This document shows positions 5,934 to 39,163 of a stretch of 64,000 bases of DNA, piece after piece. The DNA is taken from positions 7,518,075 to 7,582,074 of the forward strand of contig OZ004587.1 of assembly GCA_963924555.1 (NCBI GenBank), given 5' to 3'. The notes beneath the pieces were generated by a model, which saw nothing but the letters and a program-made list of their open reading frames with translations, searched no databases and had not been told where the DNA came from. Numbering within the stretch: the first letter of the stretch is position 1; each line of letters begins with the position of its first letter. Both the position numbers and the translations under genes were made by a program. The stretch comes from Crambe crambe. Its lineage: Eukaryota > Porifera > Demospongiae > Poecilosclerida > Crambeidae.

Positions 5934-5996
5934 CGACCCTTTACCCTTTCCTTCCCTCGCGATTGGTAAAGGGTCGGCTGCGCCAGACTACGCTGC
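5934..5996. repeat. Small foldback related to the 3448-4060 MITE ends
   Basis: GCCGACCCTTTACC and its complement enclose CCTTCCCTCGCG, the same core as in the TIRs of the 613-bp MITE. It looks like a MITE reduced to its ends, inserted at the edge of the EF-hand remnant. Confidence 0.6.
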
Positions 5997-6039
5997 GCTG
6001 TACTGTATACATTGAAAACTCATATACATTAATGACAAT

Positions 6040-6290
6040 GAATTTCATTATGACATTGTAGACGTCTAGTTTATGGTCATCTCCGTCGATCTCTCGAATA
6101 ATCTCTCTACTGCAAAATAAAACAAAGTTTAGCTGTGTAAGTTGGTTTATGGAAGTAATTTGCATGTCTAATCTCAGGAACACCCCCCATAATAGGAATT
6201 GTAATACACTCTCATCCACGTTCAAGTGTGCCTGCACTAGAAATTTATTCAGCATTGTCACCAATTGGATAGAAATTTTGTAACACTGAA
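6040..6290 (-). pseudogene. EF-hand (DRC8/EFCAB2-like) 3' exon remnants
   Basis: Two pieces match the last two exons of the intact EF-hand gene at 15930-16828: one with LVQAHLNVDESV (about 6280-6210) and one with EIDGDDHKLDVYN (about 6105-6055). Both are diverged and unconnected to 5' exons. The remnant abuts the end of the helical-module exon at 6297, so it marks a duplication breakpoint. Confidence 0.7.
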
Positions 6291-6296
6291 TCAAAT

Positions 6297-8026
6297 TCAC
6301 ACATTGGTTTTAGTTCTAAATCTTTTAAGACCTTTCACATATTCCTCCATGTTGGCTTTGAGGGTGTGATCACAAAATTTGTGAACCAAATTCTCCAAGA
6401 GTGTGTAATTTAGGAAGTCCCAGTATTTACTCAATTTCATCCATATCCTTTCAATGGTTGTATCTTTTTCTACAAACTCCATTAACTGCGTGAAAAATTC
6501 TTTGTGCAGTTCACGATACTTTATGGGTAGAGAAACAAGCCTTGCTATGAATCTAACCACATCTGGATTCTTCGTTTTAATTTGATCGAAAGTCATGTCT
6601 GCTATTTCATTAAATTTTTTTTCTAAGATTTCGATTTCTTGTTCAATCATTGTGGAAGCTGAGAAAGAGCCACTGCTGGGAGGTGGTGTGGCAATTCTAG
6701 AGGTTGATCCTTCATAGAGAGGAAGAGGAGAGGGTGTGGCCATCACTGATAGGAAAACAGTAAAATCATAGCATCTTATAAAAATTTAAAGGGGGGTTTT
6801 CCCCACAATAGCTATGGGGTTTTCCCCATGATAGCAAAATCAGAATGAAAATACAGTTTGGGTATCTAATGTGTGTAGTCACAGATGCACATTTCCTGGT
6901 CAATTTTTTATTTGTCTGGTCCTTCGTCCAACCAATCATAGATGTACATTTAAAACTGCTATTAGATAATCATGTCCGGACAATAATAGAATGTTACTAT
7001 GAACCCTGCAGACGTGATTGTTAAAGGAAGTAACAGTTAGCATGCACTCTCATTACCCATAGCAGATTTACCTACGAGTTGTAACAATATGATAGTCATA
7101 CATGGACTATTATAAATCACCCATGGATACAACACTATAATCCTACTGTACTATAAAGATATGGTAAAGGGTTCTCACAAGTAAATACTATATATTCCAT
7201 ATAGAGCTCACCTGAGTTGTCATTGGATACTGTGGCACCATCAGGATTGTTGGGAGGTGGTGTGGCAATTTATAGGTTGATCCTTTGTAGGGAGATCTTG
7301 GTGAAGGAGAGGCGTTGGGTACGGCAGGAGGAAGGGAGGGTGTGACCAGCATAGAGGTGCCTCCCTCAGAAGACTCATTAGGAGACCTCATTTTCGAAAA
7401 AGCAGCATTGGGTACAGGATGAAGGGTTAGTGTGGCCATCATGGAGGTCATTCCCTCAGAGGGAATTGTCAAGGGAGAGGCATTGGGTATAGGAGGAGGA
7501 GAGTGTGTGGCCATCACTGATTGGGTAGTGGCTATGGGAAAATAGTAATTTATAACATCCTATAACCATACAAAATACCTCAATTAACTTAAAGCTTAAT
7601 CAGAAAGCTAAAAGAGGGAAGTTTCTGGGGTTTTTCCCATGGTATACACATGCTATAGATCCAGTCGTCCCTTCTGATTCTCATACCTGGTTGAAGAGGG
7701 TTGCCTACAGCTGTGGTCTGATGATACTGTTGGTCAAGAATTTCAACAATGTCTCCATATCTTATAATGTTCTGACGCAAATGATCGACCACTTTGTGGT
7801 AATTGCGAGGGTTGAGTTCAACTCGATTCCTTATAGCAGTCACTAACATGCTAGCTTTATCAGCATCTGTCAGATTCGATTTTGGGTTGATGACTTCATC
7901 GTAACGTTCTTGTGTGATGAATCCTTGCTGGAGGAGAAACTGTGCTATATCTCTATCAGACTCCAGAGCAATCTCCAACTTCCTCCTGCACTTGACAATT
8001 GTGGAATACTCCTTGGACTCTTCCAT
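6297..8026 (-). CDS. CARD protein with Pro/Ser/Thr linker and helical module (probably broken)
   Basis: Exons 8026-7687, 7531-7212 and 6745-6297. Exon 1 encodes a CARD of about 95 residues, more than 90% identical by eye to that of the plus-strand gene at 19543; this is a death-fold domain used for homotypic adaptor contacts. Exon 2 is a Pro/Ser/Thr-rich linker made of repeated PNASP / EGxTS units. Exon 3 encodes a helical module (key residues FVEKDTT, IWMKLS, YWDFLNYTLLE) ending at a stop at 6297 where EF-hand remnant sequence begins. Exon 1 ends in phase 1 and exon 3 starts in phase 1, but exon 2 (320 bp) does not preserve phase, unlike the 210-bp linker exon of its paralogue. A frameshift in exon 2 is therefore likely. 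No NACHT or caspase domain is seen. Confidence 0.7.
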
Positions 8027-8289
8027 TTTTAACTGTACAAATAATAAAGATGTGATGGTTCATTTATCATACATAGTGTGAACATACAAACTTACAAGTC
8101 AATCTGATCTTTTGTAGTCAGTTGAACGAAATATCAATTAAGTTAGATGGTCACAGATGTCTCTCAGGGAGCAGATGTCGGGAGCAGATGTCGAGACGGA
8201 GTTAAATAATTAGCTATGTCAATGAACAGGAGTGGGCGGGGTTCCCCTCAAATGCAAATATTATTAGCCAGCAAGGTAACTCTCAGTCG

Positions 8290-8410
8290 ACTAACCTCTG
8301 CAAGAAAATGAAGAGAACAATCACACACTAGTCTACTCAAAATAATAGATCTTGAAGAGGGGCGGGGCTCCTCGAGAACAATAATGTTCAGTGAGGTCAA
8401 AGTACAATGA
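8290..8410 (-). promoter_or_regulatory. Copy of the shared CARD/DD promoter block
   Basis: AGGTCAAAGTACA at 8394-8406 with a nearby CTCGAG and a GC-box-like GGGGCGGGGC (8358-8367), about 370 bp upstream of the CARD ATG at 8026. Ordered as in the outer unit: EF-hand exon, promoter block, death-fold gene. Confidence 0.45.
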
Positions 8411-8439
8411 TAGAAACGATGAATCTTATGTTTGCTTAT

Positions 8440-8515
8440 GGCCTACGAAATCTGCAGGTCATCTCCATCCATCAGACAGTTGTCTCGAATCAATCTCTCC
8501 ACTGTAGAGTCTAAC
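8440..8515 (-). pseudogene. Fragment of the last exon of the DRC8/EFCAB2-like gene
   Basis: On the minus strand it encodes VERLIRDNCLMDGDDL and then hits a stop, matching the last exon of the gene at 15930-16045 (VERLIRDNCQIDGDDL). Only this exon is present. Confidence 0.8.
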
Positions 8516-8532
8516 TCTTCTATTTAATCCAA

Positions 8533-9411
8533 GTGACCAAGCGGAGCAAAGTGGACACACAATCAATCTGGATGGGACTGAGAACTTGGAGCTAATGCTT
8601 CCTGGGTTGTGTGCAAGGCTGGTGAGTGGAAGTCATGTTTAATGTGTATGCCATAGCAGTCAACCTTAACACACACATGTGTATGAACAGTGGGAAAGTT
8701 TCATACATTTTGAAGTGTGTACCATAGAGTCTATTCATCTCCAATCCATGGAAGTTTCCCTACAAAGATTTTTACACTAAGCAGTAATTCTTAACCTTAA
8801 ACCAGACCCTTATCACCTCAACCTCGATGATCTTAACCTCGATGATCTTAACCTTGATGATCTTAACTCATATGCACTAAACTTTAACTACAGGAGCAAT
8901 CCAGAAGGGGGTTCCCCTTGTACTGCCATATCGCTTACCTAGTGGGAAACACTGAAGTTATCCTACCATGCCCACACATGTTCAGTAATGCCATGTACAG
9001 TGCAAACATAGCTTAGGACAGACACAGTAACACTGACAGTCCCTTGTCTCTCCACCTGAAGTCTACCAAAACCTCAAGGCAGTGGTGAAGAAGCAGTACG
9101 GGCAAGATGCTGTCAATGTCGGAGATGGGGGGCGGCTTTGCTCAAGGCGGTCTTGAACTCTTGAAAGTAGCAATTGAAAAAGCCGGCTACATGGGACGCA
9201 TTCAGATCGGAATGGATTCAGCAACCTCTGAGTTTTACAAAGACAGGAAACGATCAGGTCCATCAAAATGGATGGCTTGTACCCAACTGGTTGAGCTTTA
9301 TCACAATTTCTATCCCATAGTCTCCATTGAGGATGGTTTCGATCAGGATGACTTAGACAACAAAGAACAGATTGTAGGGGACGATTTATTGGTTACAATG
9401 CACTTTTGCTA
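8533..9411 (+). pseudogene. Unprocessed enolase pseudogene
   Basis: Three pieces align with enolase in order: about 8533-8621 (DGTEN, then GANAS..VVCKAG) ending at a GTGAGT donor; 8894-8992 (GVPL, YCHIAYLVGNTEVILP) starting after a CAG acceptor; and about 9050-9411 ([52 protein letters not shown]). Retained intron borders show a DNA duplication, not a retrocopy. Frameshifts are visible in the first two pieces and at the VGDxGGF motif, and the N- and C-terminal parts of the enzyme are absent. It is not a working enolase. Confidence 0.9.
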
Positions 9412-9469
9412 AAAGTGAATCAAATTGAAACTTGAAGTAAATCCAACTGAAGGAACTTGTACTACAGAT

Positions 9470-9977
9470 AGTTTGTTGTCGTTGTTGTTGTCGTTGTTGC
9501 TGTTGTAGATTCAGTTTCACTGTACATAGTATGTATAGCAATCCATAAAGAATGATTAATCATCTATCATATACTATTATCTCACTTGCATTCATAACTG
9601 CACATATATAAACCTGTCATCTCCATCTAAAAGGAATTGAGGACTCCAAAGAATGTTAGGAAAGGAGAATTAACAGGGTCCTCCCCTTATTTATATATCC
9701 AGTGCATTGTCTATGCACCCATACAACAAATGATACAGCATAGTGATCAGCACACACTACTTCCATAGTATTGATATCCAATGTCTGAAGTCAAAGGTCT
9801 AGCCATCAAGTTATGAATCTCATTATGTGGTTATGTGTCATGTGTCATGATTATTATAAACAACAACAAAAGGAAACAAAAACAATAACAACAACAACAA
9901 TAGGTGGAGAGTTACAACAACAACAACAATAGGTGAAGAGTTACAATAACAACAATAGGTGAAGAGAAAGTTTCACA
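9470..9977. other. Gene-free stretch with (CAA)n and (GTT)n simple repeats
   Basis: Short GTT/GTC runs lie at 9474-9506 and CAA runs at about 9860-9960, with a duplicated ATAGGTGAAGAG unit. No gene seen. Confidence 0.6.
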
Positions 9978-10534
9978 CTAAATCAGGCGTATGGGCATCT
10001 CCAATATTCCTGAAATTTCAGATTGTACAATCTTAACTTTTTCCAATGGAACATTGAAAATTTTATCGGTCATAACGTAGAGTTCAGCTCGTTTCTCCTC
10101 TCCTGATCCACCAGGGTTCAGTGCTTCAGTAGGTACTTCACAAAGTCTGTGCTTGCAATAATCTTTGAAACTTGCTTCGTATTTGGCTAGTCTCTCCTTA
10201 TCATCGTTAGTGCCAAGGTGATCGATGATATCTCTTATAATTTTAAAACTGAACAGTGAACAGTAGTGAAACGCCTTCAGTAATATCTTGCTGACGTCAT
10301 CATCAGATTCATTTAGCTCAGATATTTTGTAAGGTTGGAGAATAATCTTTAAGTATTGTGGTGATATGTTTTCACTAGTGAACGACTTTGCAGTTTGGAA
10401 AAGTAGAGATGAAAATTTACTTCGAATATCTTTACTCTCCATTACGAGTCTTCCCATCAGCATACTCTTTTCTTTTTCTGATAAATGCTCACTTCTCAGA
10501 TAAGGAAATCTCTCTTCTGTTGTAGCAGATTTAT
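9978..10534 (-). pseudogene. Helical module 2, copy 1
   Basis: Acceptor at 10535. Begins DKSATTEERFPYL and runs through LSEKEKSMLMGRL, DIIDHLGTNDDKERL and YCKHRLCEVPTE to SEISGIL, then stops at 9978. The C-terminal third seen in copy 2 (ELIFYLLHELDEIFPLN) is missing. I do not recognise a named family. I call it a helical module from its length and leucine spacing. Confidence 0.6.
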
Positions 10535-13500
10535 CTATGATAGTAAGTGTAACACATGGTTTCATCATCACTGGTTAAGACGTACAGGGTTTTCACAAAG
10601 TCATATTACATTATATAGAACTCACCTGAGTTGTCATTGGATACTGTGGTACCAGCATTAGAGGACAGGGAGAAGTATTCCTTACATTCATCATACACTC
10701 TCAACACTCCAATTCCTTTCAGCAGATTCATTTGTTTCTCATTCAAAGGAAAGATTTCATCCAGCTCGTGAAGGAGATAGAAGATGAGTTCGACACATTC
10801 CTCCTTCATACCTTTCAGGTGTATGGGCTTCTCCAATATTCTTGATATTTCTGTTTGTATAACAAACTTCTTCCAACTGAACATCGAAAATTTTATCTGT
10901 CTTGACAAAAAATTGTTTCTCCTCTCCTGATCCACTAGGGTTCAGCACTTCAGTAGGTACTTCACAAAGTCTGCGTTTGCAATAATCTTTGAAACTTGCT
11001 TCGTATTTGGCTAATCTCTCCTTGTCATCGCTGGTGCCAAGGTGATCGATGATATCTCTTACAATTTGAAAACTGAACAGTGAACAGTGCTGAAACGCCT
11101 TCAGTAATATCTTGCTGACATCATCATCAGATTCATGATAAGATATTTTATAAGGTAAGAGAAGCACCTTCAAGGATCGTATCGACACTTTCTCACTAGT
11201 TAAGGACCTCTCTGTGTGGAAAAGTAGAGACGAGAATTTACTTTGAATATCTTTACTGTCCACTATGAGTCTTCCCATCAGCATACTCCTTTCTTCTTCT
11301 GATAAATATACACTTTTCAGATAAGGAAATTTCTCTTCTACTGCAGAATATTCACCTAATATGATAAAATGTGCAGGCAAAAAAAAGATCACACAATACA
11401 CAGGTGGACATTACCCTTATCATTGTCCTACAATACATATTCCATGAGTGTAATGTCAGTGAGGATTATAATTTGACAAAATATGAGGAGTTGATCGGTC
11501 ATATTAGATACATTCCTAAGTGCAATGGGATGTATTATGCCTATAATGATGTCAACTAAAGCAAATCTTGAACAGATATATGACCTTTTGACCTGGTAAT
11601 TGGCCCATGGCAGATTGTTATAATCCTCACTGAATGTTATCCAAGAATTAACAATCAGTAACACAGCATGCACCACTACATTAATGCTGCACAGACATCA
11701 CATACCGTATTTGTATAAATTTTCGATGGGGTTTTATTTTCGTTTTTTTCGTAGTCGATCAGAATCCTCGAAAAGTCTTAGTACTATGACGTCATATATG
11801 ACGACGATGCGCATGCGTATGCAATGCGATATCGATAGCAGCTGGGGAAAAACCTGGAGCAGATAGTCCGTGAGACGAAAGTATCATGCTTCATTACCGG
11901 GATCATGGCCATTGCCTGTCTCTCTTCTACAACAAAGCATCTCGCCTTCCGTAGCAGTCTAGATTTTAGTCTGACATCGCCAGCCCAGCTCTTCTTTTTG
12001 GGGGACTATCTAGATTTCTCTGTAGTAGCCATGAATCACGAGAAGGTAGCCATCATGCATGTCACTCGGCCCCAGCAGCAGATAATGATATAGCTATTAT
12101 GCGCATGCATTATTTTCCATGTGCTTGCTACGAAAATTAGACCTGCGGAAATTTTTTATTATAGGAACAGCTCCGGAAATCACAAAATTTTAAACCTCCG
12201 AAAATTTATACGATTACGGTATTCACATACCCAACCCCCCAGTTCAGCTTATGAAGAAGATATATATATATAAAATTAAAAAAAATCCCTCCTTCATTCA
12301 TACCTTTCAGGTGTATGGGCTTCCCCAATATTCTTGATATTTCTGATTGTATAACACAAACTTCTTCCAATGGAACCTCAGTAGGTACTCCATCCTTGCA
12401 ATAATCTTTGAAACTTTCTTCGTACTTGGCTAGTCTCTCCTTGTCATCGTTAGTGCCAAGGTGATCGATGATATCTCTTACAATTTTAAAACTAAAAAAT
12501 GAACAGTTATGAAACGCCTTCAGTAATATCTTGCGGACATCATCATCAGATTCATTTAGCTCGGATGTTTTATAAGGTAAGAGAAGTACCTTTAAGTCTT
12601 GTATCAATACTTTCTCAGTAATTAAGGACCTCATTGTGTGGAAAAGTAGAAATGAAAATTTACTTCGGATATCTTTACTGTCCACTATTTCTGCTGTAGC
12701 ACATTTACCTAATATGATAAAATGTATCGGCTGAAGATCACACAATACACAGGTGGATATTACCCTTATCATTATCCCATAACCACCAACTGGTTAAGAT
12801 GGTAAAAAGGTAGTAGTACATGTTACATTTTCCATGAACTGAGTGACTCTGGCTAAACAATTACATATGGACTCCATTAACTATTTCTTATACCAGTTAA
12901 ACATGGTTAATCAACAGCTAAGGGCGACCCTTTAGTATGCATCCACAGGTGTCACGTTGTTTATGTTTAATCTCCATGGAGACAAGAAAGTGTGGCTGCT
13001 TATGTTGCCTATATTGTAGCTAGTCTAGTCTATACTCACCTTTGCTAGCTACATATAAAATCGGGATTTATGAATGACCCTCGCCCTTGGGACTCGAGTT
13101 GTTTATAATCCATAAAATCAATATTGATCGATACTGACTCCATTGATACATATTAAAAGCTCACCTGATCTATCATTGACATCTGTGCCTATTATTCCAA
13201 ATGGATCAGTAGAAAATCGTTTTGAAGGTACATGGGAGGAGTTACTGGGAGGTTGAGTGGTGGGTGTGGTTAGTATAGATGCAGTTCCTTCAGAGAATTC
13301 CTTGCCATCAATAACGATATATACAATTCCATTTTCCTTATAGAATTCAGCTATATTTTTGATTTTCTGATTTGATGCTTCGTATTCTCATCGCAAATGA
13401 GGGGGAAAAAAATTCATGAGTAATGTTCTCCTCCAATTTTTCCAAGTCTTCAAGTGTATATTTATCCCAACGTTGCTCCAACTTAATGACAAAGTCTTGT

Positions 13501-15053
13501 AAATCGTGTTCTTGTAAATCGTGTTCTTGTAACTGTATACTGAAGTGTCTGGCAAATTCGCACAAACGAGTTTCATTTCTAAATTTTCTAAGATCTTTCA
13601 CATATTTCTTCATGTCTGCTTTGAGAGTGTGGTCACCAAATTTGTGAACCAGATTCTCCAGGAGTGTATAGTTGAGGAAGTTCCAGTAACCACTCAGTTT
13701 CATCCATATCTTTCCAATGGTCGTATCTTTTTCTACAAAGTCCGTTAGCTGTTGGAAAAAAATTTTGTGCTGTTTTTGATACTTTACCTTTGGAGAAAGA
13801 AGCTTTGCTACAAGTGTATCCACATCTGGATTCTTCTTTTTAATTTGATCGAAAGTCGTGTCTGCTATTTCACAAAATTTTCCTTCTAAGTCTTTGATAT
13901 TCTTTTCAATGATCTCATTACATGAATCTGCATCATAAAATTAAAGCAGTGTTATTAGGGTCTCTGGACAACATGGTAAAGGGTTATTTAAATTGTTGGT
14001 ATCTTGTATTAATGCATGTTTGGTAAAGGGTCATCAAAACTGTTGGTGGTATAATACAGAGTTAGGGCTTAAAAGCATCTGTATCATGAATAATGGTAGC
14101 TGATAGGCTAGTAGATGTTGACTTGTAAGCTGCATACAAAGAAAGCTACCACAAAGCACTTAGATGGGTGGAGGGGGTTCGCTTTGCTCACCAAATTTTA
14201 AAGTTTAATCACATCTAATTTTCTCCATACCTTGTAGGGGTTGGGGGGTGGATACAGCAGCTTGAGGACAAAGTTCGGGAGCCACTACTGAGGCGGTCCT
14301 TTCAGATAGTTCATTTGGAGCAGCTCTCATTGAAGAAACAGAGTCCTTGGATATGACTATCTCACATTCTGTGGGAAGTTGTATATGTTCAATATGTATA
14401 GCTATGCTTCACCATGCAAAATGGGTTGTGCAGGAAAGAATAGTGGGGTTATTCTGAAATTATCAAGGCTTTTTGTTGGGTTAGATTGGGGGGAGGGCGT
14501 TCGCTTTGGAAGGCAAAGTTCAGGAGCCACTACTGAGGTAGTCCTTTCAGATAGTTTATTTGGAGCAGCTCTTGTTGAAGAAACAGAGTCCTTGGATATG
14601 ACTATCTCGTGTTCTGTGGGAAGTGAGTCATACTGTAACTCACACATGTTCAACTAGTTATGTTTCACCATGCAAAATGAAGTTTTAATGATACAGGAAA
14701 AATACTAGGGTAATCGGGTTATTCTAAAATTACTAAGAAGTTGGAGGGCATAATCTGTTACCTTTCATAATGGTGGAAGCAACCCCTTCCTGATTGATCT
14801 TCTTCAGGGCCTTGATCAAAGATGTCCAAGATGGAGGGCCACTCTTTTTCAACACATTGTCCATCCCTTTGATCCATGCATCCACCATATCTTCTGGCAG
14901 AGTACTCATTCTCTTAAGGTTGGCATAATCCAGACCGAGAGCAGTGCCCAGTTCTCTCAACTGTTCATTGTTTAAGACCTTTATACTCTTACAAATTTCA
15001 AAGTGATCAAAATCCTCAGATGAACAATCTCCCAGAGGGATGGACTCGGCCAT
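9978..15053 (-). CDS. Death-domain protein with helical modules (multi-exon, probably decayed)
   Basis: Start ATG at 15053. Exons that fit by phase are 15053-14762 (Death domain), 14368-14231 (Ser/Thr-rich linker), 13927-13165 (helical module 1), about 12708-12210, 11355-10626 and 10534-9978 (three copies of helical module 2). Exon 1 shows the death-fold pattern (LRELGTALGLDY, then WTSLIKALKKI). Nearly all boundaries are phase 1, the class that lets exons be shuffled in frame. Exon 13927-13165 has a net frameshift, with a stop at 13347. Module-2 copy 11355-10626 lacks two bases near 10862 compared with its neighbour. Copy 12708 has a large internal deletion. The product may end after module 1 at 13347, leaving the module-2 exons as remains. 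No NACHT, TIR or kinase domain seen. Adaptor role is inferred from the Death domain only. Confidence 0.6.
10626..11355 (-). pseudogene. Helical module 2, copy 2 (longest)
   Basis: Acceptor at 11356, donor at 10625. It contains all parts seen in the family here: LSEEERSMLMGRL, DIIDHLGTSDDKERL, YCKRRLCEVPTE, then, after a frame change near 10862, ECVELIFYLLHELDEIFPLN and a tail TVSNDNS. The exon is 730 bp; restoring the phase-1 to phase-1 pattern of its relatives would need 732. That matches a two-base loss relative to copy 3. Confidence 0.6.
11704..12222. mobile_element. Small inverted-repeat element in an intron
   Basis: The left end ACCGTATTTGTATAAATTTT is matched in inverse orientation at about 12196-12221. 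Inner similarity is patchy (TTTTCG, TCGTAG). It lies between module-2 copies 2 and 3. A clear target duplication was not found. The ORF inside it (11905-12093) has no recognisable domain. Confidence 0.55.
12210..12708 (-). pseudogene. Helical module 2, copy 3 (truncated)
   Basis: Acceptor at 12709, start GKCATAE. It keeps DSKDIRSKFS, DIIDHLGTNDDKERL and VIQSEISRILGKPIHLKGM. The N-terminal FPYL segment and the stretch between YCK and VPLEE are deleted, and the C-terminal part is replaced by low-complexity AT sequence. Confidence 0.6.
14440..14616 (-). pseudogene. Duplicated Ser/Thr linker exon that has lost its splice donor
   Basis: Near-copy of the functional-looking linker exon 14368-14231 (both start E-x-EIVISKDSVSS after a CCCACAG acceptor). 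At the position where the other copy has AAG|GTATGG this copy has AAG|CC, so no donor is visible. The duplicated segment is about 250 bp. Confidence 0.65.
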
Positions 15054-15399
15054 TTCACTTGAGATGCTCAAAATACTGCACCAACCACAAGGTGAGCCCC
15101 ACCCACAAAAAATGCAGGCAAAGTATACCAGCCAGAACTGACGTGATGGTTCATATCATACCATAATCTTATGCCAACTTACAAGTCAATCTGATCTTTA
15201 AATATGTCTATGCAACAGTCAGTTTAATGACAGTTGATGAATGAAAAGTCAGCTTTGATGATCACAGATGAAGTGAAAGTTCTCTCAGCAGGAGAGGGAG
15301 TTATTGAAACAGAATATCAACTGCTGAAGATGCCAATCATAGAGTAGGAAACCTGAGAAATGAATGCAAGAATAGAGCGGGCGGGGTCCACACGAATAC

Positions 15400-15520
15400 A
15401 GACTAGACTTACTCCAGCTAGGTAACTAACTCACCTTCGTAAATACAATCGATAGATCAAAATCTCGAGCAAACAATTTTTTAATCAGGTCAAAGTACAG
15501 AGACGTTTAATAAGAAAGCA
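15400..15520 (-). promoter_or_regulatory. Promoter block of the Death-domain gene
   Basis: AGGTCAAAGTACAGAGACG at 15487-15505 and an adjacent CTCGAG, about 440 bp upstream of the Death-domain ATG at 15053. It matches the blocks near 5910, 8394 and 19386. Common descent by duplication explains the similarity; selection on it is untested. Confidence 0.45.
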
Positions 15521-15929
15521 ATGAATCTCATCATAGATATTAGACACGGATCGCGGAACAGGATTGGAAACTTAATACTACCATGCGCGTGCTATCCGTG
15601 TTTGCCGGGAAATTTTGGCGCGAGATATGAATGCATAGTTACCACATAGTTAAGGGTGGTGTAACATAGCAACCTGTGGTTTGCAAAAATGTTGCTAACA
15701 GACCACAAAACCAGTAGCTTCCTGTAGTGTAAGATGAGCCCGCTAAAATTACTACTAATGCAAGATTTGGCACGCTAAATGATAATACAGTCCATACAAA
15801 ACACCCGCACAATTTCTGTTTTTCGACTACAATTTATGACGTCATCGCTAATACGTGGTAATTAATTACGTCCACTGGCGATTAGACTGTTGAATTATGC
15901 ATGTGCTTATGAAAGATGACGAGTTTCAG

Positions 15930-16828
15930 CTAGTAGTGTTCAGAGTCCATTTCATCATAACGTTGACTGATACTCTGCACAAAATCTGCATAGTTTATGA
16001 GGTCATCTCCATCAATCTGACAGTTGTCTCGAATCAATCTCTCCACTGCAAATAGCAAAACAGACAAGTAAATTTGTGGAAGCAAAAGAATAATTATTTT
16101 ATTACTAGATGGCAACTGTATATTAAAAAAATTTGCATGCAGACACACCCCATAGTAGATATAATGAACTCACACACACTCTCATCCACATCCAGCTGTG
16201 CCTGTACCAGAAACCTCTTCAGCATGGTCACCTTGATAAACCCCACCCCCTCTGTATCAAACACCTTGAACGCCCTGAGAACATCTGAGTGGGCAGGCCA
16301 GGACTCTTTGATGTACTTTGAGAGTAGGTCACTCAGTTGTGCTTCTTCGATCATGTTGTGGTGTGAGTTGTCCTTGATCTGAGAGATAAGGGGACCATTC
16401 GGTTCACTTCTGATTCCCAGTGACCTGGGGATGGGAAGAATTAACAGGGTCTTCCCCTTGAACAAAAATAGAGTCATTATCCTACAATATTAGGAAAGTA
16501 ATTACCAGGGTCTCCCCTTAAATAGAAGCAGTACTGCAGCTATTGCTGGCCATTGGATCACACACTCACTTTAAGAATGGGACCAGGACAGAATTGGCAG
16601 TTGATATTCGTTCACCATCGTCAGAGAACACCTCAAAGGCATGGTGGAACTCTATTAAGTAACAAATAATCCGACTATTACTTCTAGCTGGCTACCTACC
16701 TTCTTCATCCAGTAATCCTGTGACTTCAGGTTCAGGCTGTGAATAATCTGTTTCCTCTTGCTCAGCCTACAGAGAAGAAAGAACAGTGACTAACTAAGCA
16801 TACTTCGGAAGTAGCAGAGATCTACCAT
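15930..16828 (-). CDS. DRC8/EFCAB2-like EF-hand protein
   Basis: Exons 16828-16826 (ATG only, tentative), 16766-16700, 16651-16570, 16424-16174 and 16045-15930 join in frame to 172 aa. Helix-loop-helix units include FHHAFEVFSDDGERIS, VLRAFKVFDTEGVGFI and a last one near LIRDNCQIDGDDLINYADF. The match to subunit 8 of the dynein regulatory complex is by pattern: AFEVFD-type opening, PFLxSLGIR after it, DVLRAFKVFD in the centre. In ciliates and animals DRC8 is part of the nexin-DRC on axonemal doublets. Several loops lack the full set of calcium ligands, as is usual for DRC8. An alternative is a centrin or calmodulin-like paralogue. The first exon is uncertain because its donor (ATG|GTAGAT) is weak. 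Confidence 0.72.
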
Positions 16829-18004: not shown

Positions 18005-19289
18005 ATGAATACTACTGAAACTGTTAACACAAACTCACCTTCAATTGTTGCCACTCCAATTGATGCTACCGCTAAAGAACAAGTCATGAAAGCTGATGAT
18101 GATAAAGAATGCACTTCTTCACTACTTACTACTAACCATCAATCCACCAGTACATGTGATGTGGCACCACCTGAAGAAATTCCTCTTCAAGAAGAAGTGG
18201 ATAATTCTAAATGCACTATTCCAACAGGTAAAGTAGAGTGGAGTTATTTCGAATTCGTTGTGTTGACTCATGTAAGACTCTTACATAACAAATTGTTCAG
18301 ATAAACCTGCATCCTGTGTTTCTGAATACATAATTGATGGACCTCCAGACTCCAAAAGAAAGAAAGTTGAAAGATCAGGTAGGTAACAACCTATATATAC
18401 TAGCTGTTAATATTATAATCTCTCTCTCTCTCTCTCTCTCGACAGTAAGACCAAATGCATTCATTTCGATGCGCATACCATCATCCACCGTAAGAGAGAA
18501 ATTTGAAGAGATCCAACAGAAGCTGAGGGATGCAGATCCTTCACTAAAGTCTGCAATGGTTTCCCTGAAGACACTCCACATCACCTTGATGGTGTTGAGG
18601 CTGGATAGCACTGAGCAGGAAGAGAAGTGAGTTGAGTTGTGATGACCCTTTACCAGCTATAGTTGAGGGGAAATGAAACTAACCTCCAAAAGAGAACAAT
18701 CTCTCTACTATAAAGGATGTAATCCATTATTCAGAAGTTCTACTGAACTGCACTATAGATATGTTACTTCTTTATTTGTCTCTTCTTTAGAGCAAAGGAA
18801 GTTCTAGCAGAGGTCACCAAAACAGTGATAAGTGATATCTCCATTGACGATGAACCCTTGACCCTAGAAATAAGTGGAATTGGCAGATTCTCGAATAAAG
18901 TCATCTTTGCTAAAATTAAGGAGGGACCTGCCAGAGACAAGTTGTATAGAATTGCTGGTATGTAAATTGTCAGTCTAATCTTCATGAATTCACCATTCTC
19001 TATGTATATAGCTCTCCTACGAAAACATTTCTCTGAAAATGGTCTTCCACAGATCGATGATAAGCCATTTGAGTCACATTTGACGATAGCCAAGGCCTCC
19101 AAAATGAAACGGGGCCCCAAGAAGTTAAAAATCTCAGAGTCATTGTACAAGGAGATTTCAACATTTGAATTTGGAGAACAAACAGTTGAAGGACTGGAAC
19201 TTCTGTCCATGAACAAACCGAAAGATGATGATGGTTATTATCACTGTTTTCTGAGATGTTCCTTTATAAGAAATGAAGAATGTTCATGA
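18005..19289 (+). CDS. AKAP7-like 2H phosphoesterase (2',5'-phosphodiesterase-like), both motifs intact
   Basis: Exons 18005-18227, 18301-18378, 18446-18626, 18791-18957 and 19012-19289 join in frame to 308 aa. Residues 1-75 are an acidic/Thr-rich tail. Exon 2 carries a basic cluster SKRKKVER, a possible nuclear signal. From exon 3 on the protein matches the AKAP7 central domain (2H superfamily): NAFISMRI start, first catalytic motif HIT (18577-18585), a GIGRF turn, second motif HLT (19077-19085), and an ending FEFGEQTVEGLELLSM. Paired H-x-T/S motifs are the catalytic residues of 2H enzymes, and mammalian AKAP7 uses them to cleave 2',5'-oligoadenylate. No PKA-binding helix could be identified. 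A (TC)n tract directly precedes the exon 3 acceptor. The start at 18005 is the first in-frame ATG. Confidence 0.88.
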
Positions 19290-19542
19290 ATAATTACTAC
19301 CTTTAACAGTGTAGGCCTAGGGCCGGGTGGATAGGTATTGAGTGGGCCACAAGCTGAATTGAGTATTGTCGCACCAATGAGTGGATCTCTGTACTTTGAC
19401 CTCCGTAAAAATTGTTCTCCGGTCTTAGTAGCTAGTTTACGGAGATGAGTTAGTTATACTTGCTAGTTAATAGTTTTACTGTTGTGGGGACCCTGTCACT
19501 CTTCCCTTTAATATCTGATAAGCTTATATAGCTGTTGTGGAA
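19290..19542 (+). promoter_or_regulatory. Promoter region of the CARD-2H gene
   Basis: TCTCTGTACTTTGACCT at 19386-19402 is the complement of the block found upstream of the minus-strand CARD and Death-domain genes. It lies about 140 bp before the ATG at 19543. Confidence 0.45.
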
Positions 19543-20441
19543 ATGGCAGAGTCCAAGGAGTATTCCATAATTGTCAAGTGCAGGAGGAAGTTGGAGATTG
19601 CTCTGGAGTCTGACAGAGATATAGCACAGTTTCTCCTCCAGCAAGGATTCATCGCACAAGAACGTTACGATGAAGTTATCAACCCAAAATCGAATCTGAC
19701 AGATGCTGATAAAGCTAGCATGCTAGTGACTGCTATAAGCAATCGAGTTGAACTCAACCCTCGCAATTACTACAAAGTGGTCGATCATTTGCGTCAGAAC
19801 ACTATAAGATATGGAGACATAGTTGAGATTCTTGATCGAGAGTATCATCAGAGCACAGCTGTAGAGAACCCAGGTATGAGGATCAGAAGGGTATTCCCCC
19901 TTAATGATCATTGGTCAATAGTATTATTATACTGTCCTATAGTTACTACCCAATCAGTGATGGCCACACCAATCCCTCCTGATACTGCTCCTTCACCGAT
20001 GAGATCTCTGAATGAGTCTTCCAAGGGAGCCACCTCTATGCTGGCCACACCCTCCCCTCCTCCTGTACCCAATGCCTCTCCTTCATTAAGATCTCCCTGT
20101 GAGGGAACGACTTCTACCAGCAGTGGCTCTTTTTCAACTTCCACAACCCTATGTAAAGCTAGCTAGTTATTGCTTGTGACACAATTATCACTTAATATTG
20201 TTGACTCTCAGCTGCCAGGTCCAAGGTTAAGCCAAATGCTTTTATCAGTTTTCGGATATCTTCACCTGAAATCAAAAGCAATATCGAGCAAGTGCAACAA
20301 GAAATGGTTAAAAGTGTACCCCAGCTGAAGTCATCCATGACTTCCCAAAGGAAGCTTGTTATGTCTTTCATGATTCTGAAATTGGCTACAAAGGAAGAGG
20401 AGGAGAGGTAACCAGTTGCAGAATTAGCTATTATTATATTA

Positions 20442-20536
<95 letters not shown>

Positions 20537-20578
20537 CATTATTATTATTATTATTATTTATTATTATTATTATTATTA

Positions 20579-20652
<74 letters not shown>

Positions 20653-20691
20653 CATTATTATTATTATTATTATTTATTATTATTATTATTA

Positions 20692-20766
<75 letters not shown>

Positions 20767-21269
20767 GAGCAAAGCAATGTCTTTCAGAGGTAACTCAGAT
20801 GATACATAAAAAGTACTCTCTTGGGGGAAAACCCCTTAGGTTGGAGATAGGTGGCATTGGCAATTTCAGAGATCAAGTTGTATTTGCCCAAGTCAAAGAT
20901 GGCCCTGCCAAAGATAATCTTTGTAGAACTGCTAGTAAGAATGATTGGTTATAGCTACTGGGGTGTGCAGCCTCTTTGATCAACATGATTATTTCCTTTG
21001 CAGATGATGTAAAGAAATATTTCTCTCTGAAAGGCCTTCCCACTACAGATAAAAGAAAATTTCACCCTCATGTGACCATTGCTAATGTTAAAAATGCACT
21101 GAACAGGGACAAGGCTTATCTTGAAAACAAGATTCCTTCCTCTTCATATGATAAGTTTATGGAGACTAAATTTGGCATGGAGACTGCTCAAGGACTAGAT
21201 TTACTGTCAATGACGACTGGAGGGGAAGATGGTTATATCTGTCTTGCAAGCTATCCTTTTGAACATTAG
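19543..21269 (+). CDS. CARD fused to an AKAP7-like 2H phosphoesterase domain (first catalytic motif lost)
   Basis: Exons 19543-19873, 19943-20152, 20212-20407, 20768-20934 and 21004-21269 join in frame to 389 aa. Residues 1-95 are a CARD (IAQFLLQQGFI, then LTDADKASMLV, then NYYKVVDHLRQ). Residues 111-180 are a Pro/Ser/Thr-rich linker. Residues about 180-389 are a 2H domain, with NAFISFRI, GIGNF, FHPHVTIAN and FGMETAQGLDLLSM aligning to the paralogue at 18005. The second H-x-T motif is kept (HVT, 21069-21077). At the first, the paralogue's HIT is V-M-S (20358-20366), so the catalytic His is gone. The domain may bind its nucleotide without cutting it, or be decaying; every exon is open and in phase, which favours a working gene. 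Intron 3 holds about 335 bp of (ATT)n. CARD linked to 2H is not a pairing I know from described families. Confidence 0.85.
20431..20766. repeat. (ATT)n microsatellite filling intron 3 of the CARD-2H gene
   Basis: About 335 bp of ATT units with scattered ATC and ATTT interruptions, reaching up to the acceptor at 20767. Confidence 0.97.
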
Positions 21270-21281
21270 TTATTATTTTAC

Positions 21282-21282
<1 letters not shown>

Positions 21283-21356
<74 letters not shown>
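21283..21356. repeat. (ATT)n microsatellite
   Basis: Almost pure ATT run just after the stop codon of the CARD-2H gene, likely in its 3' UTR. Confidence 0.95.
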
Positions 21357-21357
<1 letters not shown>

Positions 21358-34444: not shown

Positions 34445-37400
34445 CTAAACCTCAGAGCGTTTCCCTCCCTTGATCTTCTTCATTCCTTCATCATTAGTCC
34501 CATCAAGGGCTAGGTTTCCTGTTCCCAGTGGCTTGCTTGGACTCTCGTTACTGAGACGACCGTTACTGGGATGTTTTGCAGAGTGTGAATAGCTTTGTGA
34601 GGCTGAAGACGAAGATGATGATGATGATGATGAATGTTTTTGGCTACCCACTTGGTTGTGATCTCCTCCAATGGGATTATCAATATCGTCCTCATCTTCG
34701 ATATCAGGTTCCAGCTCAACATAGCTCACTTCTTGAGACTGTGATGGTTGATTCAGGTCGAACTTCTCCAACTTGCTTTCCAGTACAGATAAACTAGTAG
34801 TGGCATCGCTGTGTTCATTTGAGAGCGGGACCGCTGAAAGTCCATGGGCCTCTTGCGAGTATGAGTAACCATATGGTGATAAACCGGTACAGCTATCCTG
34901 TTTGGCCGGGCGTTTCATGCGAACTCTGCGCTCAGAAGGATCAGGGTAGCTATGGTCCTCGGGGTAGCTGCAGTCATCCGGGTAAGAGCTTTCCATTGGT
35001 GCCGTGTGCTTGCTTCCAGCTGGTGTGTAAGGCATGTAGCTGAATCTTTCATCATCCAACTCCATCTCTTCCTTATTCATTGAAGATGCTTGAGGAGCGG
35101 ATGCAATTCGAGTGAACTTCAAGCGATTCTTAGTCTTCTGTTTTGATGATGCTCCTCCGAAATCATTTTCTTCGACCATAGGATACTGGTAATTATACCT
35201 GCGATCGAAAGAGGGCTTGGGTTGAGAGAGAGAGGAAGTTGATCCCTTTGCTCCATTGCTGCTTTTGCTTCTTCCTGGTATAGCTTTAGCGTTGAGGGAC
35301 TCACTGCTGTGCTTCTGTGACTGTGGTTGGGATAAGTGATTGAAAGTATAACTGGCTGTGTTGCAGAGTGATTTTGAGAGGCTCTTCTGTGTCTTCAAGT
35401 TGTAGCCCATCACGTCTGACTTGCTACACCAGCCGTTGTTCTGCCCAAAGGCGAGCAAGTTTCTCAGCGCTCCCCGAGCGTTTTCACGGATACTTTTGTG
35501 ATCTGAAGTCCTGTGTATATCAAGAAGGGGGATGCAGCCGAGATCCCACAGAATCTTCTGATCTTCGTGGTGATGAGCCGAAATATTCCAGAGAATACCA
35601 GTAGCATTTGCAAGAACTGTCTTGTTTTTCGACTTCAAATGGTTTGCCAGCTTTGCGAGCCCACCAGCTTCTCTGAATTTCTTCCGGTACTTCTCGTCTT
35701 TGATCACCACAGAGAGATTCTTTAGGATGCCCCCAACGTTTTCAACCACTGCCGTGGTCCCAGAAGGGCTGTTGTAGGAGAGGAGATTGACCAGTTGCTT
35801 GATGCCTCTCTGTGTCGAGGTTATTATTATTCTGCTCTCAAGCGAGTGAGCCGAGAGATTCCAGAGGGCGCTGGTAATGTATTGAATAGTCGACTCCTCC
35901 CTACAGAAATCGACGGCTGCCATTAATGCAACGGCAACTTCATGATTGAGAAGAGCATCTTTGATATCTGGTGTTGCCCTCCACGATAGATTGCGAAGAA
36001 CTTGTGCTCCACTCGCGATGATGCTTTCATTCTGGAGGTAGATGTGATAAACGAGAGCCTTCAGGAAATCTCGAAAGGCACACAGGGTGGATTTGTTGTC
36101 GACATCACCATATGTGAGATTGATGAGAATGGAGATAACTACAGTGATGATTTTTGAAGAGTGGCATACTTTCTCTTCACCATGTCGACCACTTGATTTC
36201 TTTTGGACTGCCAGCAATCGAAAGTTAGCTATGAGGACTTCAGCAGCTGATTGTATTCCTCCGAGGGTGAGAATGGACGGTCTGTATTTCTCCTTATCAT
36301 TGGAGTATTTATAAAGCTTTCTAATCGGTGCCAAAAGTCCATCACAAGCTTCTTGAAGAGATTCATGAGCCTCGGAGTTGATTCTCTGTCCTTTGTCATG
36401 AGAGGCAATGAAATCGAAAAGCATATCGCAGTGAGCTCGGATGCTCTCAAGGACATTCAAGACGACGAGGTCATGTTTTCCCTGCCGGGTATCTGATTTC
36501 GATTTGATGATGTTTCGTAGGGTTTCTGCAGCTCTTAGTCGGATATCTTGATGGTTTCGGTCGTCCTTGTGTTCAATGTTGTGGATGATTTGAATGAGCA
36601 TTGTAAGGCAGGCTGGTTGGTACATAACCTCGACCGTCTCAGTTGTACGAGAGAGTGCCAGAAGGAGATTGGCCGCGTCCCCATCATTCTCTTTCCCTGT
36701 CTTAGTACTGAACATCTTGATCACATGAATCAGCATATCCAGTTTCATTTTGAGGGACTCACGGTTCCTTCCGTCCTCCTGGGGCTTGTCTGTCTGTTTC
36801 TTCTGGCGGTAGAACTCGGGTCTAAGTGACACTGCCTCGCGTTCCCGCTCCCCCCGGTGTGAAGGAGGGGGAGGGGCTGGTCTTGCCGGATTGGGCCCTT
36901 TTTTCACGCTTGGAAGAGTGGGCATTGAGACAGATTCGTCTTCGGGACTCTCGGATTCGTACCTTGTACCTTGCTTGTAATGTTGAGGGAAACTTGTGGG
37001 AACTTCACTTCTCGTCTTCCTCATAAATTGTGGAATGATTGAGGACGGGTGGTGGTGGTGGTGGTGGTGTCCCTGCCTCATCCCACTCGTGGGAGGCATC
37101 CCTGTTACGGATGGACGAGGGAGCACTCCCTTTGATCCCGAGCGGGAGGAGGAACTGAATGAGGACGTCGTTGAGGATGATATAGTGCTCCCTGGGACTG
37201 ATATAACGCTACCAGGCGCCGATCGAAGCCGCTCATTGGCCGAACTGTAACAGCTGCTCCCCTCACTGGAGGCTGGTGAACCAGTTTGTTTCCGGTACAG
37301 GGGGAACCCTTCCAGGTATTTCTGCCTTAGGGGAGGGTGTGAGGTCTGTGAGAGGGACGCAGGGGACCCCACTCCATGCATGTTGTGTCGCCACTCGTGG

Positions 37401-39163
37401 GGTTCCTGCTGACTCAGCGTGTGACTAGGGAGGTACCCCCGTCTGTAAGTTGGCCGGTGGCTATACTGAATGTTCTCGGGAAGATTCTCGATGAGATCTT
37501 CAGGTCCGTGTACATCCTCAACCGAAACCGAAAGGGGTAGCTTCGGATGGAGAAGACTAGGAGGGAACTCGGGATAAGGAGGGTATCTCGCATGGAATCC
37601 AGGCCGCCCTCCAAAATGTTGCCCCTTCTGTGACATGGTGGAGTGGTTAGCATCACTTCCTTCAGTTCCGAAAATCCCGCTGTCATGCTGACTTGGCTCA
37701 GGATACTGTTCATTCTCAAGCATGTCGCTGGGAGGTGTTCCCCACTGCGAATTCTCGTGGCCAGAGACCTGCAAGGGATTAGAAAGAGGTCATGAAAGTG
37801 GATTGATCACACATATAAGAAACTACAACTTATATAGAGAAGAGACAATGACTATTATTTTTGTTACAGATATAAGTACTGAAAATCTTTCACAACAACA
37901 ATGGAGGTCTATCTATCCAGTAAGTAATGTGTTTAGGCAACTCCTTCAATGCCTTCATGTTGTGAATGGTTATGGCACTGAAATAACATGTGGTTCTGGC
38001 TTAGAACAACTGGGAATATGACAAAATCCCTGGGCTGGGTTTTCGCTTCCCCCTAGACAATATGGCGAAATCGTAAATTAGATTATGGTTTCTGAGTAGC
38101 AATAGTCAAATTAGCTCGATCTCTCTTAATTCTCCCCCCTCCTTATTTGGTGGGTTTAACTTGAAGAAAAGAAATATGATACCTGCCATCGGAGGATCTA
38201 TGTCTACAGACACATCACTATACTGAAGAGGATAATCTCTCTACAAAGGACATAAGGCCCAAGTATGTCCGAAGTGTTACTTAGACAATATCTGTATGAC
38301 TACTGTGGTAACCTTAAATAGCCACGTTGCAGCCAAGTAAATCAAATCAATTCTGTTCTTACCACACAAAGTAATTATTATTATTATATCCCACAAAGCG
38401 TGTCCAAAACTTTATTATGTAGCCTATAAGCTAACATTGGACTGATTAGTTTTCTAGACAACCTGTTCGACTGAACAGCTCATTACATTTGGGGGTCAGC
38501 CATCTCCATAGCCCCAGACATTGTGGCTTTGTCTCTCCCAATGGTGTGTGTCAGGCTTGGTGCTAGATTGCCTAGTAATAATGTGCTATAGTCTGCTAGC
38601 AGCTAGTGTTTACTGGGACATTAGTATAGTGTATTGAGTTATAACAAGGCAATGTATAATCCAGTGTATAAAAATCTTCACTCTGCAACTTATTAAAGAT
38701 GCATGCAAAAAAGGGGTGGAAAATCTGCTTATTTTAGCTCTGAGATAGTTATCTATACTATGGCAGTGCAATAACTATTGCTTTAGTCAAGCTTCCCAAG
38801 TTGAGAAGCTGCTGGTGTCACACAGATAGAGTGCATTTCCAAGCTTCTAGCTACACTGCATAAGGTAACTGCACTTAGAACAAGTTGGCATACCCACTCA
38901 CTAAAGAACTTAGCTAGCTATTTGAAACAGCATATATAAATTATTGTTGCTAAAGTGCAAAAAATTAGATGATTGAACACCTTTTGCAACTGACTCAAAT
39001 TAGCTATAGTATGCAGACTATTAGCAGACTATTACTATTATAGTTTGCTGTAGCTGCCTCTGTGAAATACCTTCATCGATCCATTCCTTTGCATCCCCAA
39101 GGAGTAAGGCCTCTGCTCTAAGCTCCAGAAAAGATCGGCCCAATCGCGATCATAATGATCCAT
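34445..39163 (-). CDS. APC: Adenomatous polyposis coli (APC) homologue, short form
   Basis: Exon 1 39163-39071 (31 codons, ATG at 39163) joins in phase to one large exon 37768-34445, giving about 1138 aa; human APC is 2843. The N-terminal third is Pro/Ser/His-rich with an eight-His run. The armadillo block spans roughly residues 370-850 and carries the APC signatures VLRNLSWRA, ALWNLSAHS, GGILKNLS and GILWNISAHH. The C-terminal third is low-complexity and acidic (DIEDEDDIDN) with a nine-Ser run. I see none of the 15- or 20-residue beta-catenin repeats, SAMP (axin) repeats or the basic/EB1 region, in keeping with reports on sponge APC. The last residues RSEV fit a class I PDZ ligand (S-x-V), as does the end of human APC (TSV). 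In bilaterians APC scaffolds the beta-catenin destruction complex and organises microtubules and polarity; which of these applies here is open. Confidence 0.93.
37769..39070 (-). other. APC intron 1
   Basis: Includes a possible cassette exon at about 38183-38240 (reads RDYPLQYSDVSVDID, AG and GT at its borders). It is 58 bp and does not keep the phase between the flanking exons, so it is not included in the model. Confidence 0.5.

Follow-up and report, generated by a model that had tools for sequence, protein, structure and literature searches.

In this sponge genome (143 Mb, 119 contigs), a CARD-plus-linker cassette of an NLR-type gene family lies ahead of an AKAP7-type 2H domain that has lost its first catalytic histidine, and the two parts form one reading frame at the DNA level. 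We tentatively favor the view, to which we give somewhat less than an even chance, that an NLR-type CARD cassette was captured by a tandem AKAP7-like copy, yielding a non-enzymatic CARD-pseudo-2H partner of NLR-type proteins. The case consists of one gene in one genome. Judged from sequence, what would be new here is the unusual partner, a catalytically broken 2H domain, of a CARD gene that belongs to an NLR-type family. No CARD-2H pairing was described in the titles and abstract starts of the literature surveyed, mostly outside subscription journals, which agrees with an earlier note on this DNA, whose author knew of no such family.

Gene model and splice routes

The gene (gene 2, here CARD-2H) occupies 19543-21269 on the forward strand of the window, the 64,000-nt stretch of DNA that was analysed (C10:7518075-7582074). 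Its five exons, all with GT-AG borders, join to 1170 nt encoding 389 aa with no internal stop, as the earlier note had proposed for a CARD-linker-2H protein, and exons 1-4 exit in phases 1, 1, 2 and 1. Pfam found neither NACHT nor LRR in the 389-aa protein. The features of the gene and its 2H neighbors are as follows (a slash marks the exon-intron border).

18446-19289 (+): 2H exons of gene 1, the tandem neighbor; both H-x-T motifs, 146 bits
19543-19873 (+): exon 1, divergent CARD, 110 codons; strong donor CAG/GTATGA
19874-19942 (+): intron 1, 69 bases, open in frame
19943-20152 (+): exon 2, Pro/Ser/Thr linker, homology to the NLR-type family to ~20147; weak donor TAT/GTAAAG
20098-20099 (+): alternative phase-1 donor within exon 2, CCT/GTGAGG; last exon base 20098
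20148-20211 (+): junction, comprising the end of cassette homology, a new donor and the 59-base intron 2, followed by the 2H exons
20212-20407 (+): exon 3, where the 2H domain begins; V-M-S in place of the first H-x-T (sequence alignments)
20768-20934 (+): exon 4, middle part of the 2H domain (Pfam, gene model)
21004-21269 (+): exon 5, last part of the 2H domain with an intact second motif H-V-T; stop codon
21955-22150 (+): stretch resembling a decayed last 2H exon (translation, by eye)

The gene model predicts that the five exons make up one mRNA. By a simple consensus score, only 0.9% of GT dinucleotides on the plus strand of the window score at least as high as the exon-1 donor, versus 15.6% for the exon-2 donor. 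The donor at 20098 scores 1.07, compared with -0.83 for that at 20152, and lies below the gene's other donors. Splicing from 20098 keeps the frame (371 aa), as does skipping of exon 2 (319 aa), giving three in-frame routes in total (20152, 20098, and exon 1 to exon 3). Retention of intron 1 leaves a 207-aa CARD-linker frame with its stop at 20166, and read-through of the exon-2 donor reaches a stop four codons on. Long ATT repeats occupy 20408-20767 (intron 3) and ~21278-21357, just past the stop codon; their lengths may vary between haplotypes. Elsewhere in the window, 34445-37789 (-) holds a 1114-aa open frame that by eye is APC/armadillo-repeat-like.

The 2H domain and its catalytic motifs

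By sequence, the C-terminal part is a clear AKAP7-type domain, in agreement with the earlier note. PF10469 (AKAP7_NLS) scores 120.1 bits over residues 188-386, the Pfam cut-off being 24.4, and a PDB sequence search returned AKAP7/AKAP18 chains at E values from 2.9e-18 to 9.1e-18; the best were AKAP7 gamma at 2.9e-18 (5jj2) and AKAP18 delta at 7.9e-18 (2vfk). In three printed PDB alignments, the first catalytic F-H-I-T of AKAP7 aligns to L-V-M-S in CARD-2H, and the second motif, P-H-L-T, aligns to P-H-V-T and is kept. Alignment to gene 1, whose motifs are L-H-I-T and S-H-L-T, likewise showed loss of the first histidine and retention of the second motif. Examined for two H-x-S/T catalytic motifs, CARD-2H thus has V-M-S and H-V-T, one motif rather than two, and the histidine nearest to the lost one is 29 residues off. 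Since all three residues of the motif have changed (H-I-T to V-M-S), a single-base error does not explain the loss.

We read five 2H copies, namely CARD-2H, gene 1 and those on contigs C3, C5 and C19, leaving out a weak match on C14 (26.4 bits). The catalytic histidine is lost in one of the five, the copy behind the CARD; the copies on C3, C5 and C19 keep both histidines. No CARD was found in the hand-joined frame of gene 1. The gene 1-like copy on C3 (C3:7075491-7079306) carries a frame change and an internal stop, as read by eye in three frames, and is probably non-working, and the C5 exons are apparently intact. The C19 domain (C19:771676-775257) lies within a 1588-aa frame that by eye has a zinc-finger-like stretch ahead of it and a P-loop-like stretch behind. 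A homologue search with the 2H region found no relative in a protein collection that is possibly poor in spliced animal proteins.

In the 2H part, protein identity between genes 2 and 1 is 41% (82 of 200 residues) and DNA identity 54.8%. When sequences were randomly mutated to the same DNA identity, 0 of 2000 stayed free of stops. This run assigned all of the divergence to a single branch, an overly strict setting; reruns with half and a quarter of it left 8 and 68 of 2000, respectively. So few stop-free frames in simulation argue that the 2H frame was under selection for much of its history, a result that bears on the long past and not on selection today.

The earlier note had suggested that the protein could couple sensing or turnover of 2-5A to CARD signaling, and the AKAP7-type fold with its intact second motif would suit a CARD-tethered 2',5'-phosphodiesterase that clears 2-5A at CARD platforms. 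However, valine replaces the first catalytic histidine, the nearest other histidine being 29 residues away, and in the available text of one study, histidine mutants of AKAP7 and related 2',5'-phosphoesterases show no 2-5A cleavage; the AKAP7 mutant there lacks both histidines and the mutants of the other enzymes lack one (PMC8406329). Cleavage of 2-5A by CARD-2H is therefore unlikely, and as far as its motifs allow prediction, its 2H domain has most likely lost the ability to cut 2',5'-linked nucleotides. The turnover proposal is not supported, and we regard an active enzyme as highly improbable; sensing of 2-5A stays compatible with the sequence.

The CARD-linker cassette and its joint with the 2H exons

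Exon 1 is predicted to form a death-fold helical bundle nearest to CARDs. PF00619 left this copy unmatched at a threshold as loose as E<1, and no CARD was found when a sequence profile built from 20 copies of the family was searched against the PDB, so that structure matching is the sole route to CARD identity in this copy. The best AlphaFold model of exon 1 reached pLDDT 88.2, with only two of five models above 80. CARDs ranked first when this model was searched with Foldseek, where none reached E<=0.001 (best E 0.11, probability 1.00), and again with VIA-align. Elsewhere in the family PF00619 performs better, matching 14 of the 20 members scanned at E<=1 (best 3.1e-5). The CARD named in the earlier note is thus upheld by the modeled fold and not by Pfam; of the two profiles proposed there, AKAP7_NLS recognizes its domain and PF00619 rejects the CARD copy, with the structure search pointing the opposite way.

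What the earlier note did not contain is the family behind this exon. Sequence comparison identifies the CARD plus linker as the N-terminal cassette of an NLR-type family of ~100 copies in this genome. The CARD exon has 103 genome matches at E<=1e-3, ranging from 100% to ~30% identity, a few of them with internal stops; many are clustered, and some lie on the contig of the window. We counted NACHT and HEL1, an NLR-associated helical domain, within 12 kb and before the next CARD copy. Downstream on the same strand, one or the other was present at at least 52 of the 103 matches (a NACHT at at least 27, HEL1 at 26), the NACHT figures being lower bounds with 103 scored of 232 candidates. On the opposite strand the count was 0 of 103 among the matches listed, and 51 of 103 had no partner among the NACHT/HEL1 matches listed. 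HEL1 itself has 109 genome matches, many in open frames above 1000 aa, and obtained no Pfam name in the frames tried; an AlphaFold model of it was set aside at pLDDT 51.

Besides the locus of the window gene there were 19 sister loci, and selected frames from 9 of them were scanned with Pfam. L031 carries CARD, linker and HEL1 ahead of a NACHT-LRR frame of 1047 aa, the long HEL1 frame read in this locus. A NACHT frame is present in L032 and a NACHT-LRR frame, together with a Death domain, in L048; the L033 frame gave no named domain. Other neighbors within 10 kb of CARD exons of this family are a URGCP-type GTPase (L042, 146 bits), Roc with COR-A above cut-off (L041) or below it (L045), a Death domain (L037) and an ankyrin match below cut-off (L044). 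These domains are neighbors at the DNA level, and their fusion to the CARD exons is putative. One CARD exon family ahead of NACHT, URGCP-type GTPase, Roc-COR and 2H suggests a widely re-used N-terminal signaling exon and hints that this genome may re-use a signaling head freely. A homologue search with the whole CARD-2H protein returned two proteins, both matching the CARD-linker part, and one of them, P0001, is by eye the same sequence as the 247-aa open frame of L041.

The window also contains CARD/NLR-type gene fragments on its reverse strand (5941-16489), as listed here.

6297-6785 and 13347-13940 (-): HEL1 domains
7188-7559 (-): linker fragment behind the sister CARD
7697-8026 (-): sister CARD exon, 91% protein identity, then linker and HEL1, no 2H
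between 9978 and 12793 (-): similar-looking B1 helical frames
14733-15155 (-): Death match below cut-off, 16.4 bits
16094-16489 (-): EF-hand-like frame (by eye)

DNA homology between CARD-2H and its sister cassettes extends over exon 1 into the beginning of intron 1 and takes in much of exon 2. The longest homology stops at ~20147, five bases short of the exon-2 donor; homology to 2H genes sets in at exon 3. In several sisters the linker is ~45 bases longer and extends to a CTCAG/GTGAGC stretch usable as a donor, and in L030 and L033 it continues straight into HEL1; at the same place CARD-2H switches to CCTAT/GTAAAG. The 2H exons start 59 bases on with a phase-1 acceptor, and the matching intron of gene 1 is also phase 1. 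A phase-1 cassette thus lies ahead of a phase-1 domain.

Compared with the sister at 7697-8026 (-), the CARD exon has a dS of 0.10 and a dN of 0.042; across 13 sisters, dS ranges from 0.10 to 0.47 and dN/dS from 0.18 to 0.50. It carries five private changes at columns that are otherwise >=90% conserved, against 0 to 19 in each of the remaining 19 rows. Relative to the divergence of the 2H part, these values point to a recent origin, or a recent last gene conversion, of the CARD copy, and with a copy this young the fusion may be too recent for a settled function. When the 250 bases upstream were compared with those of 14 sisters, with the best of 100 shuffles as the yardstick, L031 exceeded it, L039 tied and 12 fell below, and several sisters resemble one another in this stretch. 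The control region of CARD-2H, by this comparison, looks different from theirs.

The recent CARD copy also suits an explanation without any fusion, in which a truncated NLR-type CARD-linker remnant would happen to end just ahead of a 2H gene that is separate or dying, with no mRNA joining them. The abundance and clustering of CARD exons, also on this contig, speak for it, as do the weak exon-2 donor, the unspliced CARD-linker frame left by the open intron 1 and the early stop past exon 2, and the decayed-looking 2H copy downstream together with the broken-looking one on C3. Set against this are the strong phase-1 donor of exon 1 and the phase-1 entry of exon 3, the three splice routes that keep the frame, and 19200-19542, where nothing resembles the first exons of gene 1. 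We judge this explanation unlikely, yet the strongest competitor of the capture reading. The same 207-aa frame could encode a CARD-only decoy, a short CARD-linker protein that would block assembly of CARD-bearing NLRs in the manner of CARD-only proteins, with the 2H exons being incidental. In its favor, the CARD shares up to 91% identity with copies that lie ahead of NLR-type genes, but the open 2H frame would be left unexplained, and we consider this a poor prospect.

Proposed function and comparison with known systems

At the DNA level, a copy of the CARD plus linker lies before one of the tandem copies of an AKAP7-like 2H gene, with phase-1 intron borders that fit each other. If the cassette was captured as we propose and its exons are spliced to those of the 2H domain, this domain, with its first catalytic histidine gone, would most likely bind without cutting, and the CARD would dock on the closely similar CARDs of CARD-bearing NLR-type proteins. 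The pseudo-2H domain would add an arm that binds either a nucleotide or a protein and promotes or blocks assembly. Ligand binding, CARD pairing and a role as adaptor, sensor or brake are predictions of this model, in which CARD-2H looks like a sensor or brake rather than an enzyme.

A more specific version would make the protein a receptor with a CARD attached that recognizes oligonucleotides of the 2',5'-linked or a related kind, whose dead 2H groove binds the messenger undestroyed and seeds a CARD platform shared with NLRs. In their available parts, published reports describe 2',5'-linked oligonucleotides in marine sponges (PMC2852836), four sponges with OAS genes for which a search for RNase L came up empty (PMC6307210), and invertebrate 2-5A-cleaving enzymes whose role is called unknown (PMC8406329). 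In the present genome, PF10421 (OAS1_C) had no match at 1e-3 (best E 0.908), and the control genomes were silent too. We see this receptor as a long shot. If true, it would provide a 2-5A receptor in animals with OAS for which, in the available text, no RNase L is reported (PMC6307210), and the combination of a CARD with a non-cutting 2H domain would make CARD-2H a concrete candidate reader of 2',5'-linked oligonucleotides in sponges.

Among known systems, CARD-2H resembles the CARD family (PF00619) in the predicted helical fold of exon 1 and departs from its usual members in that the Pfam model fails to recognize this copy. ICEBERG (1dgn), which is among the structure matches, acts as a CARD-only inhibitor. 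Like CARD-2H, it has a CARD without NACHT, and CARD-2H could similarly compete with CARD receptors, but unlike ICEBERG it has a second folded domain. With the central domain of AKAP7/AKAP18 (PF10469; 5jj2, 2vfk), CARD-2H shares a match over the whole domain and the second H-x-T; it differs from these proteins in having V-M-S for the first H-x-T and in its N-terminal CARD and linker. CARD-bearing NLRs are known from sponges, with 20 NLRC genes reported for Dysidea avara in the available text of PMC12909245. The CARD and linker of CARD-2H closely resemble those before NACHT genes in the present genome, whereas NACHT and LRR are absent and a 2H domain stands in their place.
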